IMG/VR virus record: IMGVR_UViG_3300020395_000009
Location: 1-58,379 of that record
DNA: 58,379 bases
Reading direction: 5' to 3' (one strand)
Origin: a virus
The position numbers and the translations under genes were made by a program. Below, piece by piece: positions 6,141 through 46,563 of the stretch; the first letter of the stretch is position 1; every line of letters starts with the position of its first letter. The notes beneath the pieces were generated by a model that saw only the letters and a program-made list of their open reading frames with translations, did no database searches and was not told the DNA's origin.

Positions 6141-6148
6141 TATAAATA
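6141..6148 (+). promoter_or_regulatory. T4-type late promoter upstream of gp26
   Basis: Perfect TATAAATA in the 49-base gap before gp26; the ATG follows 28 bases after the box. It probably drives the hub and tape-measure genes. Confidence 0.65.
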
Positions 6149-6175: not shown

Positions 6176-6895
6176 ATGCCTTTACCAAAAATTGCGACTC
6201 CTACCTATGAGTTGGAGCTACCATCTTCTGGAGAGACAATTAAATATAGACCTTTCCTTGTGAAAGAGGAAAAGGTTTTAGTTATTGCTCTTGAAAGTGA
6301 AGACAATAAAGAAATAACAAATGCTATTAAAGCAGTATTAAAGAGTTGTGTTCTTACAAAAGGAATTAAAGTAGAGAAACTTCCTACTTTTGATATTGAA
6401 TATCTGTTCCTCAACATTCGTGGTAAGTCTGTTGGAGAAGAGATTGAAGTTAATATTATTTGTCCTGATGATGAGAAGACTCAGGTTCCAGTCTTTATTG
6501 ATCTAGATGATATTCAAGTTCAGAAGAGTGATGAACATACCAATAAGGTAAAAGTTGATGATGATATTATGATGGAGATGTCTTATCCTTCATTGGATCA
6601 GTTCATTAAAAATAATTTTGATTTTGATGAGAAGAATGCAATGGCACAATCATTCGAGTTGATTGCAACTTGTATTGATAAGATCTATACCCAAGATGAG
6701 GTATGGGCAGCTGCTGATTGCACAAAGAAAGAGATGAATGAGTTTCTTGAGTCAATGAATTCAACTCAGTTTAAGGAAATTGAGAAGTTCTTTGAGACTA
6801 TGCCTAAGTTATCTCATACTATTCAAGTAACTAATCCCAAGACTAAGAAGAAAAGTGAAGTGGTACTTGAGGGATTAGCATCTTTTTTCGGGTAG
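6176..6895 (+). CDS. 26: gp26-like baseplate hub assembly protein
   Basis: A 239-residue protein; T4 gp26 has 208. The family is needed for hub assembly and behaves like a tail assembly chaperone encoded just upstream of the tape measure genes. Signatures seen: MPLPKIATPTYELELPSSG, IKYRPFLVKEEKVLVIALES, IDIEYLFLNIRGKSVGE-like segment (FDIEYLFLNIRGKSVGEE), VNIICPDDEKTQVPV and a helical C-terminal third. Its last codons read TCT TTT TTC GGG TAG: a T TTT TTC heptamer in the reading frame, with the next gene in the -1 frame. See the frameshift entry. Confidence 0.85.
   Translation: MPLPKIATPTYELELPSSGETIKYRPFLVKEEKVLVIALESEDNKEITNAIKAVLKSCVLTKGIKVEKLPTFDIEYLFLNIRGKSVGEEIEVNIICPDDEKTQVPVFIDLDDIQVQKSDEHTNKVKVDDDIMMEMSYPSLDQFIKNNFDFDEKNAMAQSFELIATCIDKIYTQDEVWAAADCTKKEMNEFLESMNSTQFKEIEKFFETMPKLSHTIQVTNPKTKKKSEVVLEGLASFFG
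6883..6889 (+). promoter_or_regulatory. candidate -1 ribosomal frameshift site
   Basis: T TTT TTC has the form X XXY YYZ in the gp26 frame and ends 3 bases before the stop codon. A -1 slip would continue as CGG GTA GCA ATG into the 60-residue gene that starts at 6898, with no intervening stop. This mirrors the G/G-T chaperone arrangement before tape measure genes in other tailed phages. No experimental support; the downstream gene also has its own ATG codons. Confidence 0.4.
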
Positions 6896-6897
6896 CA

Positions 6898-7080
6898 ATG
6901 GTGCATATGAATCTGGAGAATTACTTCAGATTAAATTTTGCTTTGATGCAGTACCATAAATATAGCTTGACAGAGATTGAGAATATGATGCCTTGGGAAC
7001 GAGACATTTATGTGGGTCTTCTCCAACAACATCTTGAGGAAGAAGAACTAAAACAAAAGCAGAAAAACTCTAATGCCTAG
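6898..7080 (+). CDS. small gp51-like / tail assembly chaperone-like protein
   Basis: Sixty residues from ATG 6898 or 57 from ATG 6907 (MNLENYFRLN). The pattern is a Tyr/Phe-rich helix, then ENMMPWERDIYVGLLQQHLEEEE and a charged tail. A short protein with an MPWERxIY helix follows gp26 in other T4-like cyanophages; I believe some are labelled gp51-like hub assembly proteins, but I am not sure. It sits between gp26 and the tape-measure-like gene, the place of the T part of tail assembly chaperones, and is in the -1 frame relative to gp26. It overlaps the next start by 8 bases. It may be translated alone, as a gp26 fusion, or both. Confidence 0.55.
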   Translation: MVHMNLENYFRLNFALMQYHKYSLTEIENMMPWERDIYVGLLQQHLEEEELKQKQKNSNA

Positions 7081-10072
7081 TAAGAACACCAATATAATAG
7101 GGCAGTTGAGGGGGAAGCATGACCCTCATTATAAGCTGGCGGCTAGAGTTGACTTAAATCATGATATAATACATGGAATTGAGAAAAAGTTAACTGATTT
7201 ACCAAAGATACATTCTACATTAAGTAAGTCCTTTGGAATGCAAAGGAAAACTTTACGTCGAGTGATGGGATTGGAAGGAATCCAATCTTCACTCCTCTTT
7301 AGAGTGATAGGATTGGAGGAAGTAGTCACTGGAGATGCACGGAAGAGACCAAAGGGTGAACCAGAGGGTGAGAAACCACTAAGTAGGAAAGGACCAGATC
7401 CAAAGAAACCAAGGGGTAAGAAACCAAAAAGAGGTAGAAGAGGTGCAAGAGGTAGGTCTGGTAGACCTGGTGTAGATGGTAGAGGTAGTGGATCATATAC
7501 TGATGGTGCTCGTAGAATAGGAACTTTAGATGGTGCTGATGGTGCTCCAGGAGCAAGTGGTATTGGTTCTCCTGGATTAGATGGAGTTGCTGGTGGTACT
7601 GGTGGATATGGTCCAGGAGGTTTAGATGGACTGGATGGTATAAGTGGTGCTGATGGATTAGGAGGTGCTCGTGGTGCTGATGGTTCTGGTGCTGATGGAT
7701 TAGGTGGTGCTGCTGGTGCTGCTGGTGCTGATGGATTAGGTGGTGCTGATGGTTTTGGTATTGATGGTGCTGCAGGTGCTTCAGGTCTAGGTGGTGCTGA
7801 TGGATATGGATATGGTGTTGATGGTGCTGCAGGTGCTTCAGGTCTAGGTGGTGCTGATGGTTTTGGTATTGATGGTGCTGCAGGAGCAGGTGGTGCTGAT
7901 GGATATGGATATGGTGTTGATGGTGCTGCAGGTGCTGCAGGTGCTGATGGTAGATCTGTTCATATATTAGATGGTCCTGGTGCTTTTGATAAAAGTTTTA
8001 GAAGAACAAGAATAAGTACTGAGAGTTTTACAAAGGGTACTCCATATACAAAAACTGATGCATATGCAGAAGATGTTCATGGTATTACAGCTGATGGAGA
8101 GCAATTAACTCCTCAAGAAAGAAAGAAAAGATTTCTAGAAAGAAGAAAAAAGATAACTGCAGATAGATTTAAGAGAGGTACATCAGCAGAAGGGGCAGAA
8201 AAAGTTGCTGCTGATACTACTGGTACTAGTGATCTTGTAAAGGTTGGTAAACCAGATCCTGCAGCAACTTCTGTAACACCACCTGATCAAGAAGATGCAG
8301 CTTCAGGAGAAGAAAGAGGAGGAGAGCAAAGTAATGCACAAAAAATATTAAAATCAATTAGTAGTCCTATATCTACCATAGCAGATACTGTAGATTCTAT
8401 TTTTAAGACAATACAAGATCAGTATAAGGAGCAACAAGATACTAAAGAAGATGCTAGAATAAAATCAGAAGAGAAGGAAGTAAAGGCACAAGAAAAGAGT
8501 TTAGAAAAAGGAGGATCTAAAGGTAAAGGTTTGGGTGGTAAGTTACAAGATACTACAAAAAAATTATTTAAACCTTTTACTGGCATTCTTGAAAGACTTA
8601 AGCAATTCTTTGTGGCAATCTTGGCAGGTAAAGTTCTTATGCCATTGTTGGATTGGTTTGGTGATCCAGCAAATGCAGATAAGGTTACTTCATTATTCAG
8701 ATTTGTTAAAGACTGGTGGCCTGTTTTAGTTGCAGGACTTATTGCATTCTTAGGACCATCAATGATATCATTGGTGGGTGTTGTTGCATTATTAATGTGG
8801 GGTGTCCCTAAGATTGTTGATGCAGTAAAATGGGTATTAAATATACCCAGTATGATAGGGAAATTATTAACGGGTGGTGGTAAAGATTTAGATAAAGCAG
8901 GAGATGATGCAGTTGCTGGTATAGAAAAGGATACAGATACTAAAATACCTGGACAAGATCCAAAGGCAGAAAAGCAAGCAGACCAAACGGGACAACAACA
9001 GCAACAACAAGCACCGACAGGAGGAAGAGGAGGGCAACAACAGCAGCAAGTACAACCTAAGCAGAAATTATTTGGTGGTGGTAAGGTTAATAAGTATGAG
9101 GATGGTGGTAAGGTAAAAGATAAGGAAGAGGATAGAGGTGGTGTAGTAGAGGGACCAAAGGGTAAGGATAGAGTTCCTGCTATGCTCACTGATGGTGAGT
9201 TTGTAATGAGTAGAGGTGCTGTACAAGAATATGGTGCTGATACTCTTGCTGGTATGAATGCTGCAGCAGGTGGAACTAATAAACCAGATATGGTAAAAGT
9301 TCCACACTTCTCAGGTGGAGGTATGGTAGGTGATACTCCTCCAGAGCCAGCAAATATATCTTCAGGATCTGATGGTGCTTCGGGATCTGATGGTGCTTCA
9401 GGATCTGATGGTGCTTCGGGATCTGGATCTGATGGTGCTTCGGGATCTGATGGTTCTTCTGGATCCGATGGTGCTTCTGGTTCTGGTGGCGAATCTGGTA
9501 AGGATGGTAAGGATGGTAAAGGTATACTAGGTAAGATATGGGGTGCTGCACAGAAAGTTCTTAGTCCTCAGATACGTATAATGATGAAGTTGATTGGTGG
9601 TGTGAAAGGTATGATCACTAATATTGCAAGTAATACTATTAAGAAATTAACTGGTGGTATACCTAAGAAGAAGCATATTAAATTGCATAATTCCTATGCC
9701 CTTAAGGATCATACGCATAAGAGTTTGGGACCAGCATCGGGAGGAGGAGAAGCAGGTAAACCAACAGGAATTGGTAGAATGTTAGCAGGTGCTGCTGATG
9801 CTGCTACTGGTGGATTCTTTGATTTTGATAAGCAAGGTGGTGGTGGAGCAGATCTTATTAAGAAAGCAAAGGCAAAGATATCACAGATCCAGAAGGGTGG
9901 TGCAAATATTACTCCTCCTGCATCAAATGAATCTAAAGTAACTATTATTCAGCAAGATGGAGGAGGATCTAGTCCATCTCCTGAACCTGGTGGATCAAAT
10001 ATTCCAGCATTTCCTGTTGTTTATCCAGCAAGAAAGTCTACTAAACAAAAATTATTGGGGATAACGGTATAA
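7073..10072 (+). CDS. tape-measure-like tail protein with collagen-like repeats
   Basis: A 999-residue protein. The helical N-terminus (about 1-90) is followed by a basic Pro/Arg/Lys-rich linker and a Gly-rich, partly Gly-X-Y collagen-like region (about 120-295). Further on are charged helices (about 425-500), hydrophobic segments near 507-583 (including a GLIAFLGPSMISLVGVVALL membrane-like stretch), a Gln-rich stretch (about 640-664) and VPAMLTDGEFVMSRGAV (about 701-717), a motif seen in many tape measure proteins. A second Gly-Ser-Asp/Gly-Ala-Ser region follows at about 764-816. Position after the gp26-type chaperone also supports a tape-measure or gp29-like function: setting tail length and crossing the membrane during DNA entry. 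Homology to T4 gp29 is not visible directly. Confidence 0.65.
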   Translation: MPSKNTNIIGQLRGKHDPHYKLAARVDLNHDIIHGIEKKLTDLPKIHSTLSKSFGMQRKTLRRVMGLEGIQSSLLFRVIGLEEVVTGDARKRPKGEPEGEKPLSRKGPDPKKPRGKKPKRGRRGARGRSGRPGVDGRGSGSYTDGARRIGTLDGADGAPGASGIGSPGLDGVAGGTGGYGPGGLDGLDGISGADGLGGARGADGSGADGLGGAAGAAGADGLGGADGFGIDGAAGASGLGGADGYGYGVDGAAGASGLGGADGFGIDGAAGAGGADGYGYGVDGAAGAAGADGRSVHILDGPGAFDKSFRRTRISTESFTKGTPYTKTDAYAEDVHGITADGEQLTPQERKKRFLERRKKITADRFKRGTSAEGAEKVAADTTGTSDLVKVGKPDPAATSVTPPDQEDAASGEERGGEQSNAQKILKSISSPISTIADTVDSIFKTIQDQYKEQQDTKEDARIKSEEKEVKAQEKSLEKGGSKGKGLGGKLQDTTKKLFKPFTGILERLKQFFVAILAGKVLMPLLDWFGDPANADKVTSLFRFVKDWWPVLVAGLIAFLGPSMISLVGVVALLMWGVPKIVDAVKWVLNIPSMIGKLLTGGGKDLDKAGDDAVAGIEKDTDTKIPGQDPKAEKQADQTGQQQQQQAPTGGRGGQQQQQVQPKQKLFGGGKVNKYEDGGKVKDKEEDRGGVVEGPKGKDRVPAMLTDGEFVMSRGAVQEYGADTLAGMNAAAGGTNKPDMVKVPHFSGGGMVGDTPPEPANISSGSDGASGSDGASGSDGASGSGSDGASGSDGSSGSDGASGSGGESGKDGKDGKGILGKIWGAAQKVLSPQIRIMMKLIGGVKGMITNIASNTIKKLTGGIPKKKHIKLHNSYALKDHTHKSLGPASGGGEAGKPTGIGRMLAGAADAATGGFFDFDKQGGGGADLIKKAKAKISQIQKGGANITPPASNESKVTIIQQDGGGSSPSPEPGGSNIPAFPVVYPARKSTKQKLLGITV
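7620..7955 (+). repeat. degenerate Gly/Ala/Asp-coding tandem repeats
   Basis: Imperfect repeats built on GGTGCTGATGG and GGTGCTGCAGGTGCTTCA units within the 999-residue tail protein. Two longer near-copies encode GADGYGYGVDGAAGA. The region codes for collagen-like Gly-X-Y runs and is prone to unit gain or loss. Confidence 0.8.
9365..9496 (+). repeat. 18-base tandem repeat coding GSDGAS
   Basis: About seven copies of an 18-base unit (GGATCTGATGGTGCTTCG and variants), with one extra 6-base insertion at 9419-9424. The unit stays in frame and codes Gly-Ser-Asp-Gly-Ala-Ser, i.e. two Gly-X-Y triplets. Copy number could vary between relatives without breaking the frame. Confidence 0.85.
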
Positions 10073-10073
10073 T

Positions 10074-12371
10074 ATGGCTTGGGCAGCACTGGGTAAAAAA
10101 TTAGCGACTGGAGCAGTCAAGGGTAAGGCAAAGAAGATTGCCACTGATAAGTTATTGAATAGAAAGAAAAAGTCTCGTGCCAAAAGACCATCGTTAGATG
10201 AACTTATTGCAGAGGTTAGGGGTAGTGGTCCTGAAGCTGACCAAGCAAAAGGTGGAGCACTTGTTGTTCGACCTACTACTTCTTTAGTTCCTTCTCCTGG
10301 TGGTGCTATTCAGAAACATACTGGTGTAGATGGTGAGTATGGTAGTGTAGAAGATAATATTATTAGAATCAAATCAAAAGTTATTGCAATAGATGGTATA
10401 TTAAAAGGTACTCTTGCAGCAGAGAAAGCACGGAAAGCAGATGCAGCAGCAGCACAAGAAGCATCAGAACAAGCAGCAGCAGAAAAGAAATTAGAAGCAA
10501 AACCAAAGAAGAAGAAAAAAGGAATTAAGTTGAAAGCACCCAAACAAGTTATGGGTCTTTGGCAAAGGTTACAAACTTTCTTTAGTACTCTAGTACTTGG
10601 TTATATTGGAATGCAATTGCTTCCTTTATTACCAAAGTTGATTCCTCTTGCTAAAGGTCTTCTAGGTATTGTAGATAAGATTATATGGGTTGCTGGTAAA
10701 CTTCTTGAATTTGCAGTGACCTTTATTGATTGGGGTTATAAACTTTATGATATGGGAATGGGTCTCATCAAGAATCTTGTTGGTGAAAAGGGTGCTAAGT
10801 TAATTGAAGACCTTATGGGTCACTTAAATACTCTTATCAATGGATTTCTTGTATGGAAGATAGTTGGTGAGAAAATATTTAAGGCAATTGTTGCTCATAT
10901 AAAAAGAGTCTTTAGAATAGCAAAGATAATATTCAAGAAGGTAACAAAGTTTGCTAAGAATATTATTAAGAATGCTCTTAATTTTGCAAAGAATATAGCA
11001 CAGAGGGTTGGTAAAAACCTGATGAAGATACCAGGTGTTAAGAATGTGGTATCTAATGTTGCTAAGACAGCAGGTAATATACTTGGTAAGGGTGCTAACT
11101 TATTGAGTAAGGGTAAGGGATTACTTGGTAAGGCTGGTGGTATATTTAAGGTTGGAGGTAAAGCAGCAGCAGGTAAGGTAGGAGGAATTGCTGGTAAGAT
11201 ATTTGGTAAGGCAGCTAAGTTCATTGCTCCTGCTATTAAGGGTGCAATGCCAGCAGTAAAAGGATTCCTTGGAAGGATTCCTATCATGGGACCCCTTATC
11301 GTAGGTATTGTATCTCTCTTAACAGGAGATCCTCCAGGTAAGGCTATCTTCAAGGCACTTGGTGCAGCATTAGGTGGAGCACTTGGAACCTTTATACCTA
11401 TTCCTGTTCTTGGTACACTGATTGGTGAAACAATTGGTGTGTTTGTTGGTGAGTTATTATATTATCTGATTATAAAACGAGATCCTAAAGCAGCATTTCA
11501 GTTCCTGAAAGATAGCTTTATGAAGATCTTTAATGTAGGAAAGAATATATTCCTATTCTTTAAGGATGGATTTAGTAGGTTTATTACTACCTTCCCAATG
11601 GTGAAGTTCCCTGCTCAGAGTATTGGGCATTATATGTATAAGTTCCTGTCTATCAATCCTATCTACAAAGGGATGATGGATTTTGAGGTTCCTGGTTGGA
11701 GGGTTATACCTAAATGGATTCGTGGATTCTCATTAAAGAAATTACTAAGTTCTCTTCCCAGTATTCCTGAGATATTAGGAACTATATTTAATTTGCATCC
11801 ATTGCTAAAAGGTTTGGTTAAGGATGGTAAGGTAGAAGGTTTCCCTGCAATATGGCAGTTAATGAATCCTGTCTTTATGATTAAGCATCTGAAGGAATCA
11901 TTCTTCCCATCTAGTGGTGGACCAAGTAAACCTGCTACAGAACAATCTCAATCTGTTTCAGAGGTGGGTGAACCTAAAGAGGAAAAGAAGAAGAAAGAAG
12001 ATCCTGTAAAGAAAGAGAAGAGAAGATTGAAAGAATTATATAAGAAGAAGGTTGAAAAAATTCATACTTCTATAACTGATTTTGTTATGGGTGTAGGTGA
12101 AGCAATGAAGATTCCTTTAGTTGAGGAGGAAGCAGACACACCTAAATTACAAGTTGCTGGTGCTACTACTAAGAGTGCAAGTTCAACTAATGAAAAGATA
12201 TCTTCAGTGAGTTCTCATGCTTCATATGAAGAAGGTGCTGGATCAACAGTAATTATTCAGAATAATTCTTCTACTGCTGTTCAACCATCACCTAAGAGTG
12301 ATGTTAATCCATTTGCTGCATCCTCTGCTTCTGGAGAGGATCCTTATGAGTCTCTTGATCAGTTTGGTTAA
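10074..12371 (+). CDS. second tape-measure-like hydrophobic tail protein
   Basis: A 765-residue protein starting 1 base after the previous stop. It opens with a basic segment, then Ala/Lys/Glu helices (about 100-155) and a hydrophobic block (about 160-228). Next comes a Lys/Gly/Ala-rich stretch of amphipathic repeats (about 280-395) and a strongly hydrophobic block (about 397-466; MGPLIVGIVSLLTGDPPGKA, then a Gly-rich ALGGALGTFIPIPVLGTLIG). The C-terminus is Ser-rich. Alternating amphipathic and membrane-like segments after a chaperone-like gene are typical of tape measure proteins. This and the previous protein may share that job or one may be a gp29-type hub component. No catalytic motif is visible. 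Confidence 0.55.
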   Translation: MAWAALGKKLATGAVKGKAKKIATDKLLNRKKKSRAKRPSLDELIAEVRGSGPEADQAKGGALVVRPTTSLVPSPGGAIQKHTGVDGEYGSVEDNIIRIKSKVIAIDGILKGTLAAEKARKADAAAAQEASEQAAAEKKLEAKPKKKKKGIKLKAPKQVMGLWQRLQTFFSTLVLGYIGMQLLPLLPKLIPLAKGLLGIVDKIIWVAGKLLEFAVTFIDWGYKLYDMGMGLIKNLVGEKGAKLIEDLMGHLNTLINGFLVWKIVGEKIFKAIVAHIKRVFRIAKIIFKKVTKFAKNIIKNALNFAKNIAQRVGKNLMKIPGVKNVVSNVAKTAGNILGKGANLLSKGKGLLGKAGGIFKVGGKAAAGKVGGIAGKIFGKAAKFIAPAIKGAMPAVKGFLGRIPIMGPLIVGIVSLLTGDPPGKAIFKALGAALGGALGTFIPIPVLGTLIGETIGVFVGELLYYLIIKRDPKAAFQFLKDSFMKIFNVGKNIFLFFKDGFSRFITTFPMVKFPAQSIGHYMYKFLSINPIYKGMMDFEVPGWRVIPKWIRGFSLKKLLSSLPSIPEILGTIFNLHPLLKGLVKDGKVEGFPAIWQLMNPVFMIKHLKESFFPSSGGPSKPATEQSQSVSEVGEPKEEKKKKEDPVKKEKRRLKELYKKKVEKIHTSITDFVMGVGEAMKIPLVEEEADTPKLQVAGATTKSASSTNEKISSVSSHASYEEGAGSTVIIQNNSSTAVQPSPKSDVNPFAASSASGEDPYESLDQFG

Positions 12372-12395
12372 ATATAACTATGGAGTAATAATAAA

Positions 12396-13739
12396 ATGAC
12401 CGCAAAAGTACTTGGGTTAGCTGCAGAAGCTTCTGCAATTAAATCTGTAACAATTATATCTAATGAGAGTGGTGAAGCAGTAGATATTTCACCAGGAATT
12501 TCTTTGCTTATGTATTTTGAGAGTATTCTACAGGATACTCTTAGAGTTACTGTAAGGTTTGTTGATTCAGGAGATTCAACTAAGGAGGGTAAGACTGTAA
12601 GGGAAGGTCTACCTCTGGTAGGACAGGAGAGAGTTGAGATTGAGTTTGAGGATAATAATGAGGTATCTATAGGGGCAGATCCAAAATTAGTTTTGTATGT
12701 TAATAAGATAACACCCATAGAAAATGATACTAGTACTGAATTGATACAAATAGAATTAGTATCTAAGGAGTTTATATTAAATGAAAAGATAAGAGTTAAT
12801 ACTAGATATGATGGTAAGATTAGTGATCATATTACTGATATATTAAAAGATAATGATAACTATCTTGCTACAGAAAAGGAATTAGACATTGAAGAAGTTG
12901 AAAATAATTTTAATTTTATAGGTAATAATAAGAAACCATTTTTTATGGTGAATGCATTGTCAAAGAAATCTGTACCTGTGGGTAAGAAGGGAAAGGCAGC
13001 AGGGTTCTTTTTTTATGAGACTTCTGATGGATTTCATTTTAAATCATTAGATACTTTATTAGATCCTTCTCAAAACGAAAAAGTTAAATCTATTATCTAT
13101 AATGAAACACCTGAATCTAAAGGGGCAAACATACCTGAAGGATATGACATGAAAGCTTTAGAATATAAGTTAGATAATCGTGTTAATGTTCAAGAGAAAT
13201 TAAAGTTAGGTGCTTATGATAGTAAAATAATATTATTTGATCCTTTTGATTGTTACTATCAAGTAGTTACTGATAAAGCAGAGGATAAAGATACTGAACA
13301 ATCTGCAGGTAAAGGACTGCCTAAATTAAATGATGAGTTTGAGAGGGTTAATCAACCTCAGAAAAATTCTACTAGGACTACTTATTGTTTGGTTGATAGG
13401 GGATCATTACCAACTGGAGATACTTCTGATCAAATTGATGGTGCAGAGGAACAGAATTTTGAGTATCTAAACATAACTAATCAAGCAATCAGAAGGTATA
13501 ATCAATTCTATTCATCAAAAGTCACGATTACCATACCTGGAGACTTTTCATTACATGTAGGTAATGCTATATTTGTAGATGCACCTGGATTATCAAGAGA
13601 AAAAGACGGTGGAACCGACCAGGAAGCTGGTGGGATATATATTATAGCGGATTTATGCCACTATTTAACCACAGAGGCTACCTATACTAAGTTAAATTTA
13701 GTTAGGGATACTGTTGGTAGAAAGGGTACATCAACCTAA
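12396..13739 (+). CDS. baseplate hub protein, probably gp27-like
   Basis: A 447-residue protein; T4 gp27 has 391. T4 gp27 forms the trimeric cylinder that joins the gp5 spike to the tube. The N-terminal VDISPGISLLMYFESILQDT, VTVRFVDSGDS and ELIQIELVSKEFILNEKI look like the first tube-like domain of hub proteins. The C-terminal half has KVTITIPGDFSLHVGNAIFV and a closing GGIYIIADLCHYLTTEATYT, the usual beta pattern of the second domain. It lies upstream of the gp5-type protein, as expected for its partner, though a CP12-like gene is inserted between them. Start ATG 12396. Confidence 0.65.
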   Translation: MTAKVLGLAAEASAIKSVTIISNESGEAVDISPGISLLMYFESILQDTLRVTVRFVDSGDSTKEGKTVREGLPLVGQERVEIEFEDNNEVSIGADPKLVLYVNKITPIENDTSTELIQIELVSKEFILNEKIRVNTRYDGKISDHITDILKDNDNYLATEKELDIEEVENNFNFIGNNKKPFFMVNALSKKSVPVGKKGKAAGFFFYETSDGFHFKSLDTLLDPSQNEKVKSIIYNETPESKGANIPEGYDMKALEYKLDNRVNVQEKLKLGAYDSKIILFDPFDCYYQVVTDKAEDKDTEQSAGKGLPKLNDEFERVNQPQKNSTRTTYCLVDRGSLPTGDTSDQIDGAEEQNFEYLNITNQAIRRYNQFYSSKVTITIPGDFSLHVGNAIFVDAPGLSREKDGGTDQEAGGIYIIADLCHYLTTEATYTKLNLVRDTVGRKGTST

Positions 13740-13743
13740 TCTT

Positions 13744-13748
13744 AGGAG
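13744..13748 (+). promoter_or_regulatory. Shine-Dalgarno site that sets the CP12-like start
   Basis: AGGAG, with 7 bases to ATG 13756. The frame is open back to 13714, but that longer form would overlap the hub gene and lacks such a site. Confidence 0.7.
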
Positions 13749-13755
13749 AAAATTT

Positions 13756-14019
13756 ATGAATATCAAACACGACTTAGAACATGAGGTCTATATTGACCCT
13801 AAAGATGGTAAGGAGCATACCAATCACGGTATGCATGAGTACACTAAAGAAGATTTAGAAAATTCTCATGCTTATTATGAAGAGTATCATAAGGATGATG
13901 TAATTGATCCTAATGATGCTAAGATTAATGATTATCATACACGACATGAAGATCAACACTTAGAGATCTATTGTGATAATCATCCAGATGCAGATGAATG
14001 TAAGGTATACGACGATTAA
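13756..14019 (+). CDS. cp12: CP12-like Calvin-cycle regulator
   Basis: An 87-residue acidic, His/Asp/Glu-rich, probably disordered protein. Its C-terminus, LEIYCDNHPDADECKVYDD (residues 69-87), matches the CP12 GAPDH-binding tail, with the paired cysteines 73 and 82 eight residues apart as in plant and cyanobacterial CP12. The N-terminal cysteine pair and the AWDxVEEL motif of host CP12 are absent, as in short cyanophage CP12 forms. CP12 holds GAPDH and phosphoribulokinase in an inactive complex; cyanophages are thought to use it to direct carbon into the pentose phosphate pathway. It lies between two baseplate hub genes, 16 bases after the first and 3 before the second, and so is probably expressed late with structural genes. 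Confidence 0.75.
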   Translation: MNIKHDLEHEVYIDPKDGKEHTNHGMHEYTKEDLENSHAYYEEYHKDDVIDPNDAKINDYHTRHEDQHLEIYCDNHPDADECKVYDD

Positions 14020-14022
14020 TCT

Positions 14023-16635
14023 ATGGATATCGGGGGCTCATTATTTAATTCAGGATTTTTAGGTGCTGACTTCTTCTGGTGGGTCGGTCAGATTGCTGAC
14101 GACTCTGTGTGGAGGGATAATATAACCCCAGGTAAACATGCTAATAGGCAAAATGTTCCAGGATGGGGTAGGAGATATAAGGTAAGGATTATTGGTCTTC
14201 ATGATAAAGAAGAAGAGTCTGTTGCATCTGATCAGTTACCTTGGGCACAGATAATGTACCCAGTTACTGCTGGTGGAGGTCAGGGTAGTGCTTTTCAGAC
14301 TGCAAACCTCCGTCAAGGTAACTTTGTTTTTGGATTCTTTTTAGATGGTAAAGAACAAAGTGTTCCTGTTATTATAGGAGTGCTTGGTAATAATTCCCAG
14401 ACAAAATTAGCACAAGATGGAATAGGAGCTGCTGCTGAAGGTAAAAATAATTTTGGTCCGACAAGTGGATTTTCTGATGGTGAAGTTCCTAAACAAGGAG
14501 CATCTAAAGAAGTAGTCCCTGAAACTGATTTGGTTGTTGAGAAACCAAAGTCAAATGAGCAAGCACAGGAAGAAGCAAATCAGGGATTGCCTACTAATAA
14601 TCTAGGAACCCCTGTAAATAAACCAGTATCTCCACAGCAACAGGCAGATATTGATAATGCTAGAAGACAAGGTGAAGAACTGGGATTAGAGGGTGAAGAA
14701 TTATTCTCTTATATTAGGGAGAATGTTCAGAAAGGTATTGAGAACAGGATTAAGAATGCAAATGCTGCTGATGCACCTGTACAACCAGGAGCAACTAAGG
14801 AGACTGCAGATGCTATTCATTTAACTGGTGCTGCTGATGTTATAAGAGATGATTTATATGAAAAACCTATACCTGTTATGAAACCTGATGATCTTGTTGG
14901 GTCTTCTCTGAAGTCTATGCAAATTGTTATGGATAATATGACACAGGATGTTGATAAGTATATGAAATCATTAAAGGATGGTGGATATATTGATGCTGTT
15001 TCTATGAATAAAGACTTACGTAATCTGAAGGCAGTTCAAGCAAATGCTGCATGTGAGATATCAAAGTATATGAAGATTATTATGGATAAGATGATGGAAT
15101 ATGTATCAAAGACATTAAACAAAGAATTAGCAGAGAAGGTTGCACAGATGCCATCTAGTCAAAGGTGGATGATGGCAGATATGAAAGAGATAACTGGAAA
15201 ACAAACGCTTCAGAATTATAATCAAATTGCTGACAATATGTGTGGAACTATAGAACAAGTACTAGAAGAGACTTTAGATACGGATGAGATAATTAAACAG
15301 TTCCAAGGTAGGATAGATCGTTCAATTGATCAGCAAATTAGGGATCAAACTGGACTTACTGGTGGAGATCCAGGTACTGATGCAACAGTTGATATGATAA
15401 ATGCTGCTCAAAACATTGTAACTGATTATGCTGCATTAGATCCTGATCAAGATTCTATAATGGAGAGTACCCAAAACACTATCGTTGATTTGACAAAGGA
15501 ACTTGACTATCCAACAAAACCAAAATTAAAAGATTGTTTTGCAGAAGATTTGGCCGCAAAAGTTATAAGTCAAAATAGGAAATTAATTGATACTGCAAAT
15601 GATAATATTGTCAAGAGTATTAATTATTTTATGAATGATATGCAAAAGATGTTGTCAGAATCTGGAGCAACTTCTACTGGTAGTAAGTCTATTGCTGGTC
15701 AGATAATGTCATTTACTGATGAAGAAGTATTGGATCAAGTAAGAGGAGGTACTGCATATATTACTGCAACATCTGTTGCAACTGGTATCTATGGTAATAT
15801 TAATCCTGGAATTAGTACAAGTTTAGGTAAGGGATGTGTAGTTAATATTAAAGTAGATAGTGGTGGTCTTTGTGGAAAGGGTGCTGCACAAGCTGAACAT
15901 TATACTTGGATAGAAAGAGGAACTAATTATGTTAATGGTAACCAGTCAGGAACTATTTGTGATACTAGTGGTGCTGGAACTGGTATGGTAATTAATATGA
16001 CTGTTGCTGGAGGTGAAATACAAACAGTAAGAGTTCATACTATGGGTACTGGATATAAAGCAGGAGATATAATCTATCCTCATATGCAAGGAGGACCAGG
16101 TTCTATTGCTGGTAATGGATCCTTTAGACTGGAGTTAGTACAAGGTCCAATTAATCCAGGTGGTATTGATATAATTAAGAAAGGTGCTGATTATAAAGAT
16201 GGTGATGTTATATTTGTTGATCAGACTAATTTTGGAGTTAGGTCAACTGATGCAACATTTACTACTACATCTACTAGTACTAAGATTGATAAGAAATTAA
16301 CAGGAACAGGACAAAGTTTAGATGATATATTAGGATCTATTACTTCTGTTGGTGGTAATTTAACTCAAGCATTGCAGTTTAAGAATATTACTGGTAATGT
16401 ATTCCCGTTTGAGTTGCCTCCTAATTTGGCGGTGTCTGATATGTATAAGTTAGGATCGGGTGGTTCATCTAAAGAGGATGCTGAATTACCAAACGTTTCT
16501 AATGTTCATAAAAAAGTAAAACCACTTGAACAAAAACCACTTCAAGGTATACCATTTATAGAACCTGATATCGGTGAACCTGAATTGAAATATGATGAAG
16601 TTAGATCTAGGATAAATGCTCCTGGTTTATCCTGA
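14023..16635 (+). CDS. 5: gp5-like baseplate hub protein with OB-fold, no lysozyme
   Basis: An 870-residue protein. Residues about 15-125 resemble the gp5 OB-fold: FFWWVGQIADDSVW, GWGRRYKVRIIGLHDKEEES, QLPWAQIMYPVTAGGG, LRQGNFVFGFFLDGKEQSVP and VIIGVLGNN. In T4 gp5 this is followed by a lysozyme domain; here there is a low-complexity linker (about 130-280), a long helical region (about 280-480) and a beta-rich part with GxGYxxGDxI turns (about 560-770). I see no lysozyme catalytic pattern, so cell-wall degradation must come from elsewhere. The long needle of T4 gp5 is probably replaced by the separate spike protein downstream. Confidence 0.75.
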   Translation: MDIGGSLFNSGFLGADFFWWVGQIADDSVWRDNITPGKHANRQNVPGWGRRYKVRIIGLHDKEEESVASDQLPWAQIMYPVTAGGGQGSAFQTANLRQGNFVFGFFLDGKEQSVPVIIGVLGNNSQTKLAQDGIGAAAEGKNNFGPTSGFSDGEVPKQGASKEVVPETDLVVEKPKSNEQAQEEANQGLPTNNLGTPVNKPVSPQQQADIDNARRQGEELGLEGEELFSYIRENVQKGIENRIKNANAADAPVQPGATKETADAIHLTGAADVIRDDLYEKPIPVMKPDDLVGSSLKSMQIVMDNMTQDVDKYMKSLKDGGYIDAVSMNKDLRNLKAVQANAACEISKYMKIIMDKMMEYVSKTLNKELAEKVAQMPSSQRWMMADMKEITGKQTLQNYNQIADNMCGTIEQVLEETLDTDEIIKQFQGRIDRSIDQQIRDQTGLTGGDPGTDATVDMINAAQNIVTDYAALDPDQDSIMESTQNTIVDLTKELDYPTKPKLKDCFAEDLAAKVISQNRKLIDTANDNIVKSINYFMNDMQKMLSESGATSTGSKSIAGQIMSFTDEEVLDQVRGGTAYITATSVATGIYGNINPGISTSLGKGCVVNIKVDSGGLCGKGAAQAEHYTWIERGTNYVNGNQSGTICDTSGAGTGMVINMTVAGGEIQTVRVHTMGTGYKAGDIIYPHMQGGPGSIAGNGSFRLELVQGPINPGGIDIIKKGADYKDGDVIFVDQTNFGVRSTDATFTTTSTSTKIDKKLTGTGQSLDDILGSITSVGGNLTQALQFKNITGNVFPFELPPNLAVSDMYKLGSGGSSKEDAELPNVSNVHKKVKPLEQKPLQGIPFIEPDIGEPELKYDEVRSRINAPGLS

Positions 16636-16641
16636 TAAATA
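16634..16641 (+). promoter_or_regulatory. T4-type late promoter before the 2237-residue gene
   Basis: GATAAATA, one base off consensus, overlapping the TGA of the gp5-like gene and followed by TCTAA; the ATG is 33 bases further on. Confidence 0.45.
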
Positions 16642-40700: not shown

Positions 40701-41648
40701 ATGACTCGAAGAAAGGTTTTCACCTTAGATGGTGGGGCAGGACGTGCTATAACTGCAATTCCAGCGTTAGAAAAATATGCTAAAGCACATCCTGATGAAG
40801 ATTGGAAGATTGTTATAGGTGGTTGGGATACTTTAATGTTTGGTAATCCTCTTCTGCAGGATAGAACCTTTAGTATGGATGTAAAGGGATTATTTGAGAA
40901 TGTAATTAAAGATTCTGAGATAGTTCATCCAGAACCTTATACACAATGGGCATATTATAATCAGCAATGTTCTCTTGCAGAGGCATTTGATAAAGTTATT
41001 AATGAAACAGAAGATCATTCGGATTTAGGTAAACCGAATATGTATCTCTGTAAAGCAGAAGAGAAGGGTGCTGCTAATGCTCTTGCTAGTATTAAGGCAA
41101 AGCAGAATAAAGATATTACAATAGTAATTCAACCATTTGGTAGATCAGCAAGAGCTGATAATGGAGATGTTGTTGATGATAGTAGTAGGTCAATAGAACC
41201 ACATGTTTATCAGAAGCTGGTTAAAAAATTATCTCAGAAGTATAATATTATATTAATGGCAGAAGGTGATTTTATAAAAGAAGTTGAGAAAGAAGATACT
41301 TACTCAGAAAAACCACAATTACCAGATCTTCGTGCTTGGTCTGCTATTATTGAAGGGTGTGATTATTTTATTGGATGTGATAGTGTAGGGCAGCATATGG
41401 CAAGAGCATTTGATATTCCAGGTACAGTTATACTTGGATCAACTTTTGCTGAGAATGTTAGTTATCCTGATTGGTTTCAGATTATTGATGATAAGAAAAC
41501 AGAAAAAAGGTATTCTCCTATCAGAATATGTGGATTTGATAATCATCTTGCAGATAGATTGAATGATAGATTGATGGAATTTGACGATAAAGAAATAACT
41601 GATATTTATACTAGAATTGTAAAAGATATCAAGGAGAAAGTTTCATGA
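40701..41648 (+). CDS. GT9-family (heptosyltransferase-like) glycosyltransferase
   Basis: A 315-residue protein from ATG 40701. GT9 enzymes transfer heptose or related sugars from a nucleotide donor. Evidence: an N-terminal Rossmann start (FTLDGGAGRAITAIPALEKY), a mid-protein strand ITIVIQPFGRSARADNG, and the C-terminal signature IIEGCDYFIGCDSVGQHMARA with DIPGTVILGST (about residues 218-245), which matches the D-S/T-G-xx-H-x-A donor site of GT9. It is the first gene of a cassette containing ADP-heptose genes. The cysteine iron-finger of AAH/TibC protein heptosyltransferases is not seen, so the acceptor (host glycan or phage protein) is unknown. Confidence 0.7.
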   Translation: MTRRKVFTLDGGAGRAITAIPALEKYAKAHPDEDWKIVIGGWDTLMFGNPLLQDRTFSMDVKGLFENVIKDSEIVHPEPYTQWAYYNQQCSLAEAFDKVINETEDHSDLGKPNMYLCKAEEKGAANALASIKAKQNKDITIVIQPFGRSARADNGDVVDDSSRSIEPHVYQKLVKKLSQKYNIILMAEGDFIKEVEKEDTYSEKPQLPDLRAWSAIIEGCDYFIGCDSVGQHMARAFDIPGTVILGSTFAENVSYPDWFQIIDDKKTEKRYSPIRICGFDNHLADRLNDRLMEFDDKEITDIYTRIVKDIKEKVS

Positions 41649-43432
41649 ATATATTAGCAATTAATCCAGGTCATAATGGATCTGCTGCTCTTGTTGCCGA
41701 TGGTAAATTAGAAGTTTATATAGAAGAAGAAAGGATGTCTCGTGTGAAGCGAGATGGTAATCCGTATAAGGCGATGATATGGTTGATGCAGAAGTATACT
41801 ATAAATTATCTTGTTATATGTGGTAATGGATCTGAACACGAAAGGCATGTGCTTCCCTGGACAGGTGAGAATTCTTATGAAGCATTAGTAAGAAAATTTT
41901 ATCCAAAAGTAGAAGTACTTAGTTTTGGACATATGCATCATTTAGCACATGCTGCATCTGCTTTTTATGGTTCTGGATTTGATAGTGCTGCTGCTCTTAT
42001 AGTTGATGGTTGTGGAGCATCAAGAAAATTTCCTAATATTGAGGATATGCCTGAAGAACAAAAGTTTACTTATTTTGAGACGGAAAGTATCTACAAATGT
42101 GAATGGCCTGATAAGATAGAAGAAGTTTGGAAAAGATATGGAGAAAATAGTGGACCTAGAATAGAAACACCAGATACTGATGCTGATTCTGCAGTTACAC
42201 TTACTAAATCTTATGAAGCAGTTTCAGAATGGCTTGGGTTTGGTGCTATAGAAGCAGGTAAAACAATGGGTCTTGCTCCTTATGGTAGAGAAGATAAGAA
42301 TATCCCTAATCTTTTTATGGAGGATACTTTAAGAGGAGATAAGAATATTTTTATACCAGCATATCCTAGATGTGCATATCTTGATCAAATTAGATACCCA
42401 TATCTAAATGTTAGTAAGGATTTTACTAAAGATGAAGATGGAAGGGATCTTGTTTATTGGCATAAAGATAAAAGTAAGATAAGGGATGTGCATAAAAATT
42501 TAGCATATAAAATCCAGAAAGAAACACAAGAAATGATGTGTACTTATATTGAAAAGGCAGTTGATATGACTGGAGAGAAGAATATTGTTATATCTGGTGG
42601 ATATGGATTAAATGTTATTGCTAATACCTATTATCAAGAAAAGTTCCCTGAGTTAAACATTTTTGTAGATCCAATATGCCATGATGGTGGACTATCTATT
42701 GGTGCAGCAAAATTTATTTCGCAACAATATGCAAAGACTAGTGATATCACTTATGAGAAAGATCCTCTAAAGAATGTTTATCTTGGTCCTGAATATAATT
42801 ATACTGATGAAATTCTTGATGGTTATTTGGAATTTAATAAACTTGATGATGTAGAGATAGTAGAAACTACTGATGCAGAAGTTGCTCAGTTGATTAAGGA
42901 TCGTAATATTGTTACTATCTTCCAGGGAAAATCTGAAGGTGGTCCAAGAGCACTTGGTAATCGTTCTATCCTTTATGATCCAACAGATCCTGATGGTAAG
43001 GATTTTGTCAATACTGTTAAGGGTCGTGAGTGGTTCCGTCCATTTGCTGCATCAATTCTTAAGGAACATGCAAAAGAATGGTTTGATATGAAAGGATTAA
43101 GAGAAAGTCCTTACATGATGTATGCTCTTGAGGTGAGTGATGCACATATAGGTGAGATACCAGCAGTTACGCATGTTGATGGTACATGTAGGATTCAGAC
43201 TGTATCTAAGTTAGACAATACTAGTTACTATGCTCTTATTAAAGAGTTTTATAAGTTAACTGGTGTTCCAATATTGTTTAATACTTCATTTAATCTTGGA
43301 GGAGAACCTCTTGTAGAGAATCTTGATGATGCAATTAATACATTAAGAAATAGTAAGTTAGAATATATGTATATGCCAGAACTTGGTAAATTAATTAAAG
43401 TTCCTAATAAGGAGGAGGAATCTGATGGGTAG
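41645..43432 (+). CDS. O-carbamoyltransferase (NodU/CmcH/TobZ family)
   Basis: A 595-residue protein, full length for the family. These enzymes form carbamoyl-adenylate from carbamoyl phosphate and ATP and transfer the carbamoyl to a hydroxyl of a sugar or antibiotic. The N-domain begins MNILAINPGHNGSAALVADG and has the metal-binding HMHHLAHAASAFYGSGFDSA near residues 95-115, followed by LIVDGCGAS. The C-domain carries FQGKSEGGPRALGNRSIL (about residue 430), GREWFRPFAASIL, HVDGTCRIQTV and VPILFNTSFNLGGEPLV, all typical and apparently intact. It overlaps the GT9 gene by ATGA, so they are probably made together; the target is likely the same sugar. Confidence 0.9.
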   Translation: MNILAINPGHNGSAALVADGKLEVYIEEERMSRVKRDGNPYKAMIWLMQKYTINYLVICGNGSEHERHVLPWTGENSYEALVRKFYPKVEVLSFGHMHHLAHAASAFYGSGFDSAAALIVDGCGASRKFPNIEDMPEEQKFTYFETESIYKCEWPDKIEEVWKRYGENSGPRIETPDTDADSAVTLTKSYEAVSEWLGFGAIEAGKTMGLAPYGREDKNIPNLFMEDTLRGDKNIFIPAYPRCAYLDQIRYPYLNVSKDFTKDEDGRDLVYWHKDKSKIRDVHKNLAYKIQKETQEMMCTYIEKAVDMTGEKNIVISGGYGLNVIANTYYQEKFPELNIFVDPICHDGGLSIGAAKFISQQYAKTSDITYEKDPLKNVYLGPEYNYTDEILDGYLEFNKLDDVEIVETTDAEVAQLIKDRNIVTIFQGKSEGGPRALGNRSILYDPTDPDGKDFVNTVKGREWFRPFAASILKEHAKEWFDMKGLRESPYMMYALEVSDAHIGEIPAVTHVDGTCRIQTVSKLDNTSYYALIKEFYKLTGVPILFNTSFNLGGEPLVENLDDAINTLRNSKLEYMYMPELGKLIKVPNKEEESDG

Positions 43433-44081
43433 ATATAAATCAACACAACCACCGTCACAAATACCTCAAGAGATGCCAGATGGATCACCTCCTCCTGGTT
43501 ATTCAATATATAATCCAGAAGATTGGCCAAAAGAATTTCCAAATGGAGTAATTGGTATTGATAGAGATGGTGTTATAAATGAATGGAAGAATGTAATTAA
43601 AAGGCATGAGGATGTTAAATGGATACCAGGATCATTAGAAGGGATTCGTACTTTAAGATTAAAGGGATATCATGTTATGATGTTTTCTGATCAACCCATA
43701 ATGAAGGGGTTGATAAAAGCAGAAGAAGTTGATAAGATAATGAATACTTTTTATATGCGAGAGTTTGGGCAGAATGGTATTTTCTCTATTGATGGATTTT
43801 TATATAATACGAGTAATGATCCAAGAGATATGTATTCTAAACCAAATACTGGTATGTTTAATAAAATGAAGCAAATGTATAAGATGGATATTACGGGAGG
43901 GTATTATGTCGGTGATACACTAGATGATATTAAGATGGCACAGAATGGTGGTGCTAAACCTGTATTGGTTAGAACTGGATTCGGTGCAAAGACTGAGAAA
44001 GAAAACTTTAAGGGAATTAATACCAAATATAAAGACGTACAAATTTTTGACAACCTATTAGATTTCGCTAACTCATTATGA
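43425..44081 (+). CDS. GmhB-like HAD phosphatase (heptose bisphosphate type)
   Basis: A 218-residue protein. After a Pro-rich N-terminus of about 40 residues comes GVIGIDRDGVINEW, the nucleophile motif of the GmhB/HisB-N phosphatases, then IPGSLEGIRTLRLKGYHVMM, the second motif in FSDQP and the acid cluster YYVGDTLDDIKMAQNGGAKP. GmhB removes the C7... specifically the C7 phosphate of heptose 1,7-bisphosphate in the ADP-heptose route. The classic Cys zinc loop is absent, as in some family members. It overlaps the neighbours by 8 and 4 bases. Substrate is inferred from the HldE-like and HldD-like genes nearby; a HisB-type role is less likely. Confidence 0.7.
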   Translation: MGRYKSTQPPSQIPQEMPDGSPPPGYSIYNPEDWPKEFPNGVIGIDRDGVINEWKNVIKRHEDVKWIPGSLEGIRTLRLKGYHVMMFSDQPIMKGLIKAEEVDKIMNTFYMREFGQNGIFSIDGFLYNTSNDPRDMYSKPNTGMFNKMKQMYKMDITGGYYVGDTLDDIKMAQNGGAKPVLVRTGFGAKTEKENFKGINTKYKDVQIFDNLLDFANSL

Positions 44082-45103
44082 AAAGAGCTCTTATTACTGG
44101 TGGTGCAGGTTTCATTGCTCACCATATGATCGGTCAGATACTTGAGAATACTGACTGGGAAGTTATTACATTAGATCGTCTTGATTATAGTGGTAACTTA
44201 AATCGTCTTCATGACTTGATGCTTTCTTATGACCCAGAGGTTAGAAGTAGAGTAAAGATTGTACATCATGATCTTAAGGCAGAACTTAATCCACTTGTTC
44301 GTAGTGAGGTTGGTGATGTAGATTATATTTTACATCTTGCTGCAGGATCTCATGTAGATAGAAGTATTGATTATCCAATGGAATTTGTCATGGATAATGT
44401 TGTAGGTACATGTAATATACTAGAGTTTGCACGTACTCAAAAGGATAACTTAGAAAGGTTTATCTACTTTGGAACTGATGAGGTATTTGGTCCTGCACCT
44501 AATGGTATCAAGTACAAGGAGAATGATAGGTTTAACTCTACCAATCCATATAGTGCTAGTAAGGCAGGTGGTGAAGAGTTAGCAGTAGCATATGAGAATA
44601 CCTATAACCTTCCCATATACATTACACATACAATGAATGTCTTTGGTGAGCGTCAGCATCCAGAGAAGTATATTCCTATGTGTATCCGAAGGGCAAGGGA
44701 TGGTGAAACTATTACTATTCATAGTGACTCTACCAAAACAATTCCTGGTTCTAGACATTATATTCATGCAGAAGATGTCTCGTCTGCTATTCTATTCTTA
44801 TTAAATTATGAAGGTGAGTTTGAGCCAACATGGGGTAATGCTAAGTGTCCTAAGTTTAATATTGTTGGATCAGAAGAACTTAACAACCTAGAGTTAGCAC
44901 AGATTATTGCTGATGCTCAAGGTAAAGAATTAAAATATGAGTTAGTTGACTTCCATTCATCCAGACCAGGACATGACTTACGTTATGCATTGGATGGTGA
45001 TAAGATGAAGCAACTTGGTTGGGAACCTGCTAAGACAGTAAGAGAACGTATTGCAGATGTAACTAAGTGGACATTGGAAAATGAACGCTGGATTACTTTA
45101 TGA
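44078..45103 (+). CDS. NAD-dependent nucleotide-sugar 4,6-dehydratase (RmlB-like)
   Basis: A 341-residue short-chain dehydrogenase of the extended type. It has the NAD motif ITGGAGFIAHHMIGQ near the start, HLAAGSHVDRSIDYP, the RmlB active-site segment FIYFGTDEVFGPAPNG (Thr-Asp-Glu), NPYSASKAGGEELAVAYENT (Tyr-xxx-Lys) and HTMNVFGERQHPEKYIP. The later RHYIHAEDVSSAILFLL is typical of dTDP-glucose 4,6-dehydratases. It forms a 4-keto-6-deoxy sugar from a nucleotide sugar; dTDP-, CDP- or GDP-linked substrates cannot be told apart here. It implies that the cassette makes a 6-deoxy sugar or deoxyheptose as well as heptose. Overlaps both neighbours by ATGA-type junctions. Confidence 0.85.
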   Translation: MKRALITGGAGFIAHHMIGQILENTDWEVITLDRLDYSGNLNRLHDLMLSYDPEVRSRVKIVHHDLKAELNPLVRSEVGDVDYILHLAAGSHVDRSIDYPMEFVMDNVVGTCNILEFARTQKDNLERFIYFGTDEVFGPAPNGIKYKENDRFNSTNPYSASKAGGEELAVAYENTYNLPIYITHTMNVFGERQHPEKYIPMCIRRARDGETITIHSDSTKTIPGSRHYIHAEDVSSAILFLLNYEGEFEPTWGNAKCPKFNIVGSEELNNLELAQIIADAQGKELKYELVDFHSSRPGHDLRYALDGDKMKQLGWEPAKTVRERIADVTKWTLENERWITL

Positions 45104-45507
45104 TGGAGAATGATATAGTATGGTGTAATGGTACATTTGATATACTTCATCCAGGTCACATACAACTCTTTAAGGTTGCAAGGTCACTTGGTAGGAAAGT
45201 TATTGTTGCTACTGATACTGATGAGAAGATAAAGGCAGACAAAGGAGATCATAGACCAGTTAATGATCTATGTTATAGAGTGGCAATGCTTGAGGCAATT
45301 AAGTATATTGATGTAGTCCACACATTTGGTAGTAGACAAGAGTTAGAAGACTTGATAGAATTGTATGCACCTGATATACTATTACTTGGTGATGATTGGA
45401 GGGATGGTGATGTAGTTGGATGGGAACATGCAGGTGAAGTCAGGCATCTTCCAAGAGTTGGTGGCTATGCTAGTAGTAAAACTATCGAAAGAATTAAAAA
45501 TCTATGA
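45100..45507 (+). CDS. HldE-C / cytidylyltransferase-like sugar nucleotidyltransferase
   Basis: A 135-residue protein with the nucleotidyltransferase signature WCNGTFDILHPGHIQLFKVA (HxGH), IVATDTDEKIKADKG, RPVNDLCYRVAMLEAIKYID and LLLGDDWRDGDVVGWEHAGE. This is close to the C-terminal domain of HldE (RfaE), which makes ADP-heptose from heptose 1-phosphate and ATP, and to glycerol-3-phosphate cytidylyltransferase. The pattern of Gly-Asp-Asp-Trp plus a following Val-Gly and the linked kinase gene favour an HldE-type role. The kinase domain is a separate gene downstream, whereas in enteric bacteria the two are fused in the opposite order. Confidence 0.8.
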   Translation: MMENDIVWCNGTFDILHPGHIQLFKVARSLGRKVIVATDTDEKIKADKGDHRPVNDLCYRVAMLEAIKYIDVVHTFGSRQELEDLIELYAPDILLLGDDWRDGDVVGWEHAGEVRHLPRVGGYASSKTIERIKNL

Positions 45508-46235
45508 GAGTATTAGTTATTGGTGATAGTTGTGAAGACAGATTTGTTTATGGTAATGCCAAACGGTTAAGTCCAGAAGCACCTGTTCCTATACTAGAAT
45601 CTCAGAGAACTGAGACTAGTAAAGGAATGGCATGGAATGTTTTTAATAACTTACTAGCATTTGGTATAGAAACCTCTATGCTTACTAATGCAGAACAGAT
45701 AGTAAAGACAAGATATATTGATGAGAAGTCTAATTACCAGATCCTTAGAGTAGATGATGAACCTGAAATTAAACCATTAGAGGAGGTAGTTTCTAATGAT
45801 AATTATGATGCCCTTGTTATATCTGATTATGATAAGGGGTTTATAAAACAGGAGAAGTTATTTGAGATATGTTCTACATTTGTTGGTCCAATTTTTGTTG
45901 ACACTAAAAAGAATAATATACCAGAAAATGCTTATGTTAAGATAAACGAGTCTGAATTTGAGAAGGTTACTCATTATGATCCAAATAATTTGATCATAAC
46001 TAAGGGAGGGAAAGGTGCTGAATATCAAGGTAATTTATATCCAGCAGAGAAAGTGAATGTATATGATGTAGTTGGTGCAGGTGATACTTTTCTTGCTGCA
46101 CTGACATTTGGATTTTTACAGTATGGTAAAATGGAGGAAGCAATTCCTTTAGCAAATAAAGCAGCAGCAATTGCTGTATCACACACAGGAACATACGTAC
46201 TACAGGAGGAAGATGTCAAAAAGATACTGCGTTGA
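45504..46235 (+). CDS. PfkB-family sugar kinase, HldE-N-like
   Basis: A 243-residue protein, shorter than the usual 310-330 of HldE kinase domains. It begins VLVIGDSCEDRFVYG and has KRLSPEAPVPILE, the hallmark RxSPEAPVPV segment of heptose-7-phosphate kinases. It keeps YDALVISDYDKGFI, VDTKKNN, KINESEFEKV, LIITKGGKGAEYQG and the catalytic VYDVVGAGDTFLAALTFGFL with Asp in GAGD. The shortening falls between the N-terminal motif and residue 70, where part of the lid appears missing, so activity should be checked. It would phosphorylate heptose 7-phosphate at C1. ATGA overlap with the nucleotidyltransferase gene. Confidence 0.75.
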   Translation: MRVLVIGDSCEDRFVYGNAKRLSPEAPVPILESQRTETSKGMAWNVFNNLLAFGIETSMLTNAEQIVKTRYIDEKSNYQILRVDDEPEIKPLEEVVSNDNYDALVISDYDKGFIKQEKLFEICSTFVGPIFVDTKKNNIPENAYVKINESEFEKVTHYDPNNLIITKGGKGAEYQGNLYPAEKVNVYDVVGAGDTFLAALTFGFLQYGKMEEAIPLANKAAAIAVSHTGTYVLQEEDVKKILR

Positions 46236-46563
46236 TATTGATGGTACAATCTGTACTCCTACTGTGGGTAGAGATTACCACAAAGCAGAACCTTGGAAAG
46301 ATAGAATCAAGGTACTAAATAAACTTTACGATGAAGGTAATTATATTATCTACTTCACTGCACGGGCTATGGGTAGATTTTCTGATAAACCTCATTCTAT
46401 TGCATCTGTATCAGCAGAGGCAGTTTTATTTGATCTTACAAAACAACAATTAGATGATTGGGGTGTTAAGTATCATGAGTTAATCATGGGTAAACCACAT
46501 GCTGATTATTTTATAGATGATAAAGCCTGGACAGATGTATCCTTTTTTAATGATAAGAGATGA
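46213..46563 (+). CDS. small HAD-family hydrolase
   Basis: A 116-residue protein from ATG 46213, preceded by GGAGGA at 46205-46210 and overlapping the kinase gene by 23 bases. Motif I is YCVDIDGTICT (Asp-x-Asp), motif II YFTARAMGR (Thr-Ala-Arg) and motif IV DYFIDDKAWTD. This set is typical of the short HAD hydrolases found in polysaccharide gene clusters. It probably dephosphorylates a sugar phosphate, perhaps sharing work with the GmhB-like enzyme, but the substrate is unknown. Confidence 0.7.
   Translation: MSKRYCVDIDGTICTPTVGRDYHKAEPWKDRIKVLNKLYDEGNYIIYFTARAMGRFSDKPHSIASVSAEAVLFDLTKQQLDDWGVKYHELIMGKPHADYFIDDKAWTDVSFFNDKR

Follow-up and report, generated by a model that had tools for sequence, protein, structure and literature searches.

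A CP12-like gene in the slot between the gp27-like and gp5-like hub genes of a T4-like cyanophage, and the possible exchange of two CP12 subtypes at this place

The stretch of DNA analysed here (hereafter the window; 58,379 nucleotides of IMG/VR record IMGVR_UViG_3300020395_000009) carries a short CP12-like gene between two baseplate hub genes, all on the plus strand. The features on which the following argument depends are given by position, strand and description:

6141..6148, plus strand: late-promoter-like TATAAATA; the gp26-like gene starts 35 bp further on, at 6176
6176..16635, plus strand: putative late unit, proposed from the motifs and the distances between genes; it runs through the gp26-like and gp51-like genes, two large tail genes, gp27-like, CP12 and gp5
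12396..13739, plus strand: gp27-like baseplate hub gene (phrog_350, T4-GC 15), from a family match and AlphaFold2/Foldseek, the T4-GC number being taken via homologs
13744..13748, plus strand: AGGAG, Shine-Dalgarno-like, 7 nt 5' of the CP12 ATG, read from the sequence
13756..14019, plus strand: CP12-like gene, 87 aa, subtype T4-GC 63 / PHROG_2603
13936..14013, plus strand: stretch matching Pfam CP12 at profile positions 44-70, with the Cys pair; predicted GAPDH-binding tail
14023..16635, plus strand: gp5-like hub gene (Gp5_OB, phrog_33098)
16634..16641, plus strand: late-promoter-like NATAAATA at the gp5 end, 41 bp before 16675; after 6141 it is the next such site to lie 12-90 bp before a gene

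The gene upstream of CP12 is gp27-like, and its product is predicted to fold like T4 gp27. The AlphaFold2 model, built with 36 homologs, reached a pLDDT of 77.4 and a pTM of 0.78, and its best Foldseek matches in the PDB were T4 gp27 structures (E 2.8e-19, with a TM-score of 0.74 when normalised by target length). The downstream protein matched Gp5_OB with 25.2 bits, barely above the cut-off of 25, and phrog_33098 with 1.7e-162. The original prediction had given the CP12 gene its own Shine-Dalgarno site and a tight fit between gp27-like and gp5 structural genes, and both points were borne out by the AGGAG listed above, by the identification of the two neighbours, and by the spacing of 16 bp from the upstream stop and 3 bp to the downstream ATG. 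The gene run from 6176 keeps the order given above for the putative late unit, an order shared by P-SSM2 minus the inserted CP12. The window also encodes a tail protein of 999 aa (7073-10072), the first third of which carries collagen-like Gly-rich repeats, and, between tail-fibre genes at 41645-47159, genes for a Nol-like carbamoyltransferase, a nucleotide-sugar epimerase, a nucleotidyltransferase and a 2OG-Fe(II) oxygenase.

The CP12-like protein ends in LEIYCDNHPDADECKVYDD. Residues 61-86 match Pfam CP12 (PF02672) with 29.2 bits (E 1.6e-6), above the curated cut-off of 22.7, and its only cysteines, C73 and C82, form the C-terminal pair, the protein closing on a VYDD end as read from the sequence; both cysteines are invariant in 41 alignment rows. 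Hence the CP12 tail with its Cys pair, as claimed in the original prediction, was confirmed, and a chance motif as the source of this tail is ruled out by the Pfam cut-off passed. A PDB search aligned the tail with the CP12 chains 3zdf (E 0.0014), 6gfo (E 0.0029) and 3b1j, the tails of which are presumably seated in GAPDH. The match to phrog_2603 (5.3e-25) extends over residues 3-87, a full-length family match, to a family that is listed as 'unknown function'. PSSM2_066 of P-SSM2 carries the note T4-GC 63, and T4-GC 337 and 63 are given as 'CP12 = carbon metabolic regulator' by Sullivan et al. (2010; PMC3037559). PSSM2_066 is 89% identical to the window's CP12 over 84 residues, with the same subtype and the same N-terminus; it differs in its place, at 53.6 kb among small ORFs, and the gp27-gp5 slot of P-SSM2, the nearest isolate, is empty. 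The gene at 13756-14019 is a further example of an already known cyanophage CP12 subtype.

Classical CP12 features include an N-terminal Cys pair and an AWD_VEE motif (PMC3906501). The window's protein lacks the former by sequence reading and the latter by sequence and alignment, and the classical GAPDH-CP12-PRK complex is therefore not expected. Prochlorococcus host CP12 resembles it in having the C-terminal Cys pair and an ECxVYDD end, and the one host protein examined is likewise without the N-terminal Cys pair. The Pfam profile is matched in full by the host protein, with 61 bits, and at positions 44-70 only by the window's protein. The N-terminal 60 residues (13756-13935) are conserved and His-rich, H9, H21 and H24 being invariant in 31 rows, and gave no alignment to host-like CP12. 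Since this conserved portion is without a host-like CP12 counterpart, GAPDH inhibition may be only part of the function. The AlphaFold2 model of the CP12-like protein itself was poor (pLDDT 58.4).

PHROG_627 (host-like) and PHROG_2603 (tail-only) are both CP12 families. The host-like subtype can be aligned with Prochlorococcus CP12 from end to end and has the tail region alone in common with the window's subtype; PHROG_627 is also listed as 'unknown function'. The host-like subtype occurs at the same place, for example as SSSM7_015 (S-SSM7, T4-GC 337) and as the CP12 of S-WAM2, which stand in the same order as in the window, separated from their neighbours by between a few bp and about 20 bp, and which differ in being host-like and full-length (phrog_627 type), with an N-terminus unrelated to that of the window's protein.

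The position of the gene had been regarded as exceptional, on the view that cyanophage CP12 genes lie near other metabolic genes such as talC or nrd and not between gp27-like and gp5. The comparison of synteny that was called for contradicts this. Among 16 isolates examined, which are not a random sample, CP12 lies in the gp27-gp5 slot in eight and elsewhere in eight. In S-SSM7, the record of which annotates CP12, the genes T4-GC15, CP12 (T4-GC337) and gp5 follow one another at distances of 9 and 6 bp; S-WAM2, again with an annotated CP12, and S-T4 have gp27-like, CP12 and gp5. In Syn9, Syn10, S-RIM50, S-RIM2 and S-SZBM1, CP12 comes directly behind gp27 and is followed by added genes (cpeT, tRNA, endonuclease or oxygenase) and then by gp5. 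The CP12 gene of Syn9 is numbered gp17 and stands between gp16 and gp20. CP12 lies elsewhere by viewed context in P-SSM2, RB11-B, ACG-2014f, P-TIM68, Syn1 and P-HM2, and by match positions in S-B05 and S-RIM44. The slot is empty in five isolates (P-SSM2, P-TIM68, ACG-2014f, S-RIM44 and S-B05). Of six virus records from single cells that carry the window's subtype, four hold it in the slot and two outside it. Exactly one CP12 copy was present in each of 23 records searched, the eight hub-slot isolates included, so that the hub-slot gene is the sole CP12 of those eight; a second, conventional CP12 in the same genome was found in none of the 23, although eleven of these (nine contigs from IMG/VR and two fragments of single-cell viruses) may not be complete. 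The CP12 match was below the Pfam cut-off in two of the 23.

The same picture emerged from IMG/VR, where the loci were retrieved via CP12 itself and empty slots are therefore undercounted. The window's protein was used as one query (best 80 of 249 relatives) and Syn10 CP12, of the host-like subtype, as the other (best 80 of 421). For the window's subtype, gp27 ends at most 36 bp upstream in 49 of the best 80 of 249, with no gp27 upstream in the other 31, and gp5 follows within 7 bp in 46 of these 49 hub loci. The remaining three are a contig that stops within the gene, a contig that stops 229 bp past it, and locus L092, in which an oxygenase gene and cpeT stand ahead of gp5. For the host-like subtype, gp27 lies at most 150 bp upstream in 71 of the best 80 of 421 and was not found in nine; among the 71, gp5 lies within 30 bp in 55, farther away in 12 and was not found in four. 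The tight form, in which CP12 is alone in the slot, is thus the commonest among the loci kept (46/49 and 55/71). Unusual synteny is ruled out by the isolates and by these loci, most of which hold CP12 in the slot; the gp27-gp5 slot is a common CP12 place in T4-like cyanophages, and the window's position is ordinary. CP12 is also carried by two phage-genome-sized contigs of cellular assemblies, one of 188 kb from Nonlabens xiamenensis (L194) and one of 189 kb from Prochlorococcus AG-418-C09 (L193). Their CP12 copies are no more distant from the phage query than those of phages, and the contigs are possibly co-assembled cyanophage genomes.

These positions also bear on the suggestion that the gene encodes a small baseplate protein, with a role in structure or assembly, whose end is CP12-like by chance. 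The place of the gene, the lack of an assigned function for PHROG_2603 and an N-terminus unrelated to host CP12 would agree with such a protein. Against this, the tail passes the Pfam cut-off, the slot also takes a full-length host-like CP12, several phages that retain gp27 and gp5 have the slot empty, and the same protein sits elsewhere in P-SSM2, all of which makes a baseplate protein highly improbable.

A location between two proteins of the puncturing device, with tight spacing in most loci, invites the thought that CP12 is packaged along with the hub proteins, injected at entry and able to halt the Calvin cycle at once, as had been proposed originally. The virion proteomes argue against it. 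In S-SZBM1, which has a hub-slot CP12, the 30 proteins in Table 1 of the virion proteome, as far as the accessible part of the source extends, do not include CP12, and they do include S-SZBM1_65 (536 aa) as well as a protein of 87 aa (PMC9146016). The length of S-SZBM1_65 is that of the gp27-like protein adjoining CP12, the two being matched by length and order, so the neighbour is present in the table from which CP12 is missing; a 70-aa protein can, however, escape detection. Counting makes S-SZBM1_61 the presumed gp5; the same paper mentions this protein in its text, but it is not among the Table 1 rows available (PMC9146016). Likewise, no CP12 is named in the S-CREM2 table of 52 virion proteins, the CP12 of S-CREM2 belonging to another clade, and other phages carry CP12 far from hub genes. 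Delivery of CP12 by the virion is thus very unlikely.

The preferred reading is that the window carries a tail-only cyanophage CP12 in a commonly used slot, that the tail plugs host GAPDH and slows the Calvin cycle, and that the gene is co-transcribed with the hub genes, its product not entering the virion; we regard this as likely. The disulfide-bearing tail would enter the active site of host GAPDH in the manner of the corresponding tail in host CP12, and the slowed Calvin cycle would divert NADPH and carbon to nucleotides. CP12 would probably be transcribed with the hub genes and made in the infected cell rather than carried in.

Co-transcription is suggested by the distribution of NATAAATA, which we take to be the T4-like late promoter. 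In the window it lies 25-59 bp ahead of six of 34 gene starts against 0.66 expected, with a maximum of four in 200 Markov shuffles, although the window has fewer matches overall (13) than the shuffles have on average (16). The unit with CP12 lies between the sites at 6141 and 16634, and an extra match at 6955 lies within the gene at 6898. Where the window's subtype occupies the hub slot, the late motif was found within 120 bp upstream of CP12 in 4/51 and near the gp5 end in 22/38. In the host-like hub loci (L113-L187), NATAAATA was found in 17 of 71, each time 28-35 bp before CP12, and these 17 comprise 11 of the 12 enlarged-slot loci, five of the 55 tight ones and one of the four in which gp5 was not found. 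Based on this spread (11/12 versus 5/55), CP12 in a tight slot seems to rely on the hub operon, whereas enlarged slots often seem to have a site of their own.

Another explanation is that the position has no meaning, the gp27-gp5 junction being a place that tolerates small genes and CP12 being a middle gene with its own promoter here as elsewhere. A hot spot 'near gp5 with tRNAs' is described by Sullivan et al. (2010), and cpeT, tRNAs, an endonuclease gene or a 2OG-Fe(II) oxygenase gene stand beside CP12 in Syn9, S-RIM50, S-RIM2 and S-SZBM1. The CP12 of P-HM2, at its other genomic place, is classed as a middle gene (PMC5082946). However, there was no excess of sigma-70-like promoters that could serve CP12 from inside gp27, the window holding 26 matches against 29.4 expected from shuffles, none of which stands out, and the tight slot with CP12 alone is the commonest form among the loci kept. 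A position without meaning is rather unlikely. The P-HM2 CP12, beside talC, has CATAAATA 32 bp upstream, and because this middle gene also has the motif, a late-promoter motif alone does not fix the timing. Within the paper collection searched for CP12 timing or place, no paper dealt with the timing of hub-slot CP12. Judged by the promoter-like motifs, late expression of the window's CP12 is plausible.

The slot may also be a place of exchange. On a gp27 tree of 129 proteins (fasttree, with a long-branch warning), which was also the source of the gp27-defined groups, the label of the window's subtype needs nine changes, six of them forced by well-supported branches, against a shuffled mean of 41. 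These nine changes suggest that the subtypes were swapped in place, and that they replaced each other in the slot more than once, perhaps several times. A clear case is L092, in which a GC63-type CP12 stands in surroundings like those of S-SZBM1, with the oxygenase and cpeT genes retained. The edges of the gene were compared in 30-bp blocks for ten chosen locus pairs. In L018 and L019, the gp27 proteins of which are far apart, blocks within cp12 agree at 77-100%, against 0% just before the start and 40% just after the end; the steps at the cp12 ends are similar in L028/L029, L012/L049 and L071/L092. The window and L035, which have alike flanks, show the opposite pattern, the flanks being mostly more similar than cp12.

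When the two gp27-defined groups were imposed on the CP12 tree, each was rejected by the AU test (p 0.0002 and 7e-6), and vertical inheritance of CP12 with gp27 was rejected on this basis. In the most distant bin, agreement at four-fold sites was 0.62 for CP12 against 0.39 expected from composition, and 0.42 for gp27 against 0.40, the pairs in both cases not being independent. In the same bin of hub loci, the mean amino-acid identity of CP12 was 0.84 versus 0.68 at third positions, which fits purifying selection. A constraint at the level of DNA or codons, rather than exchange, could also lie behind the identity of cp12. From the sequence comparisons we read cp12 as having been transferred as a lone gene between phages with distant hub genes. 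More broadly, and tentatively, the gp27-gp5 junction may be a standing CP12 slot in which distant phages exchange CP12 genes of two subtypes, unrelated in their N-termini, with breakpoints exactly at the gene ends. In its tight form the slot would couple the halt in carbon fixation to the late structural genes, and late infection would thus have its own Calvin-cycle inhibitor; this wider proposal is possible rather than probable. It is this exchange of subtypes at one constant place that deserves attention.

As to annotation, PHROG_627 and PHROG_2603 can be named CP12. Cyanophage CP12 is considered to redirect carbon in those phototrophs that are most abundant in the ocean, and the model in which it acts as a middle gene comes from phages with CP12 beside talC, P-HM2 among them. 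With most of the CP12 loci kept lying inside the hub gene run, the timing of expression becomes a clear question. If hub-slot CP12 is late, the model of CP12 acting with middle genes to feed DNA synthesis would need a second phase.
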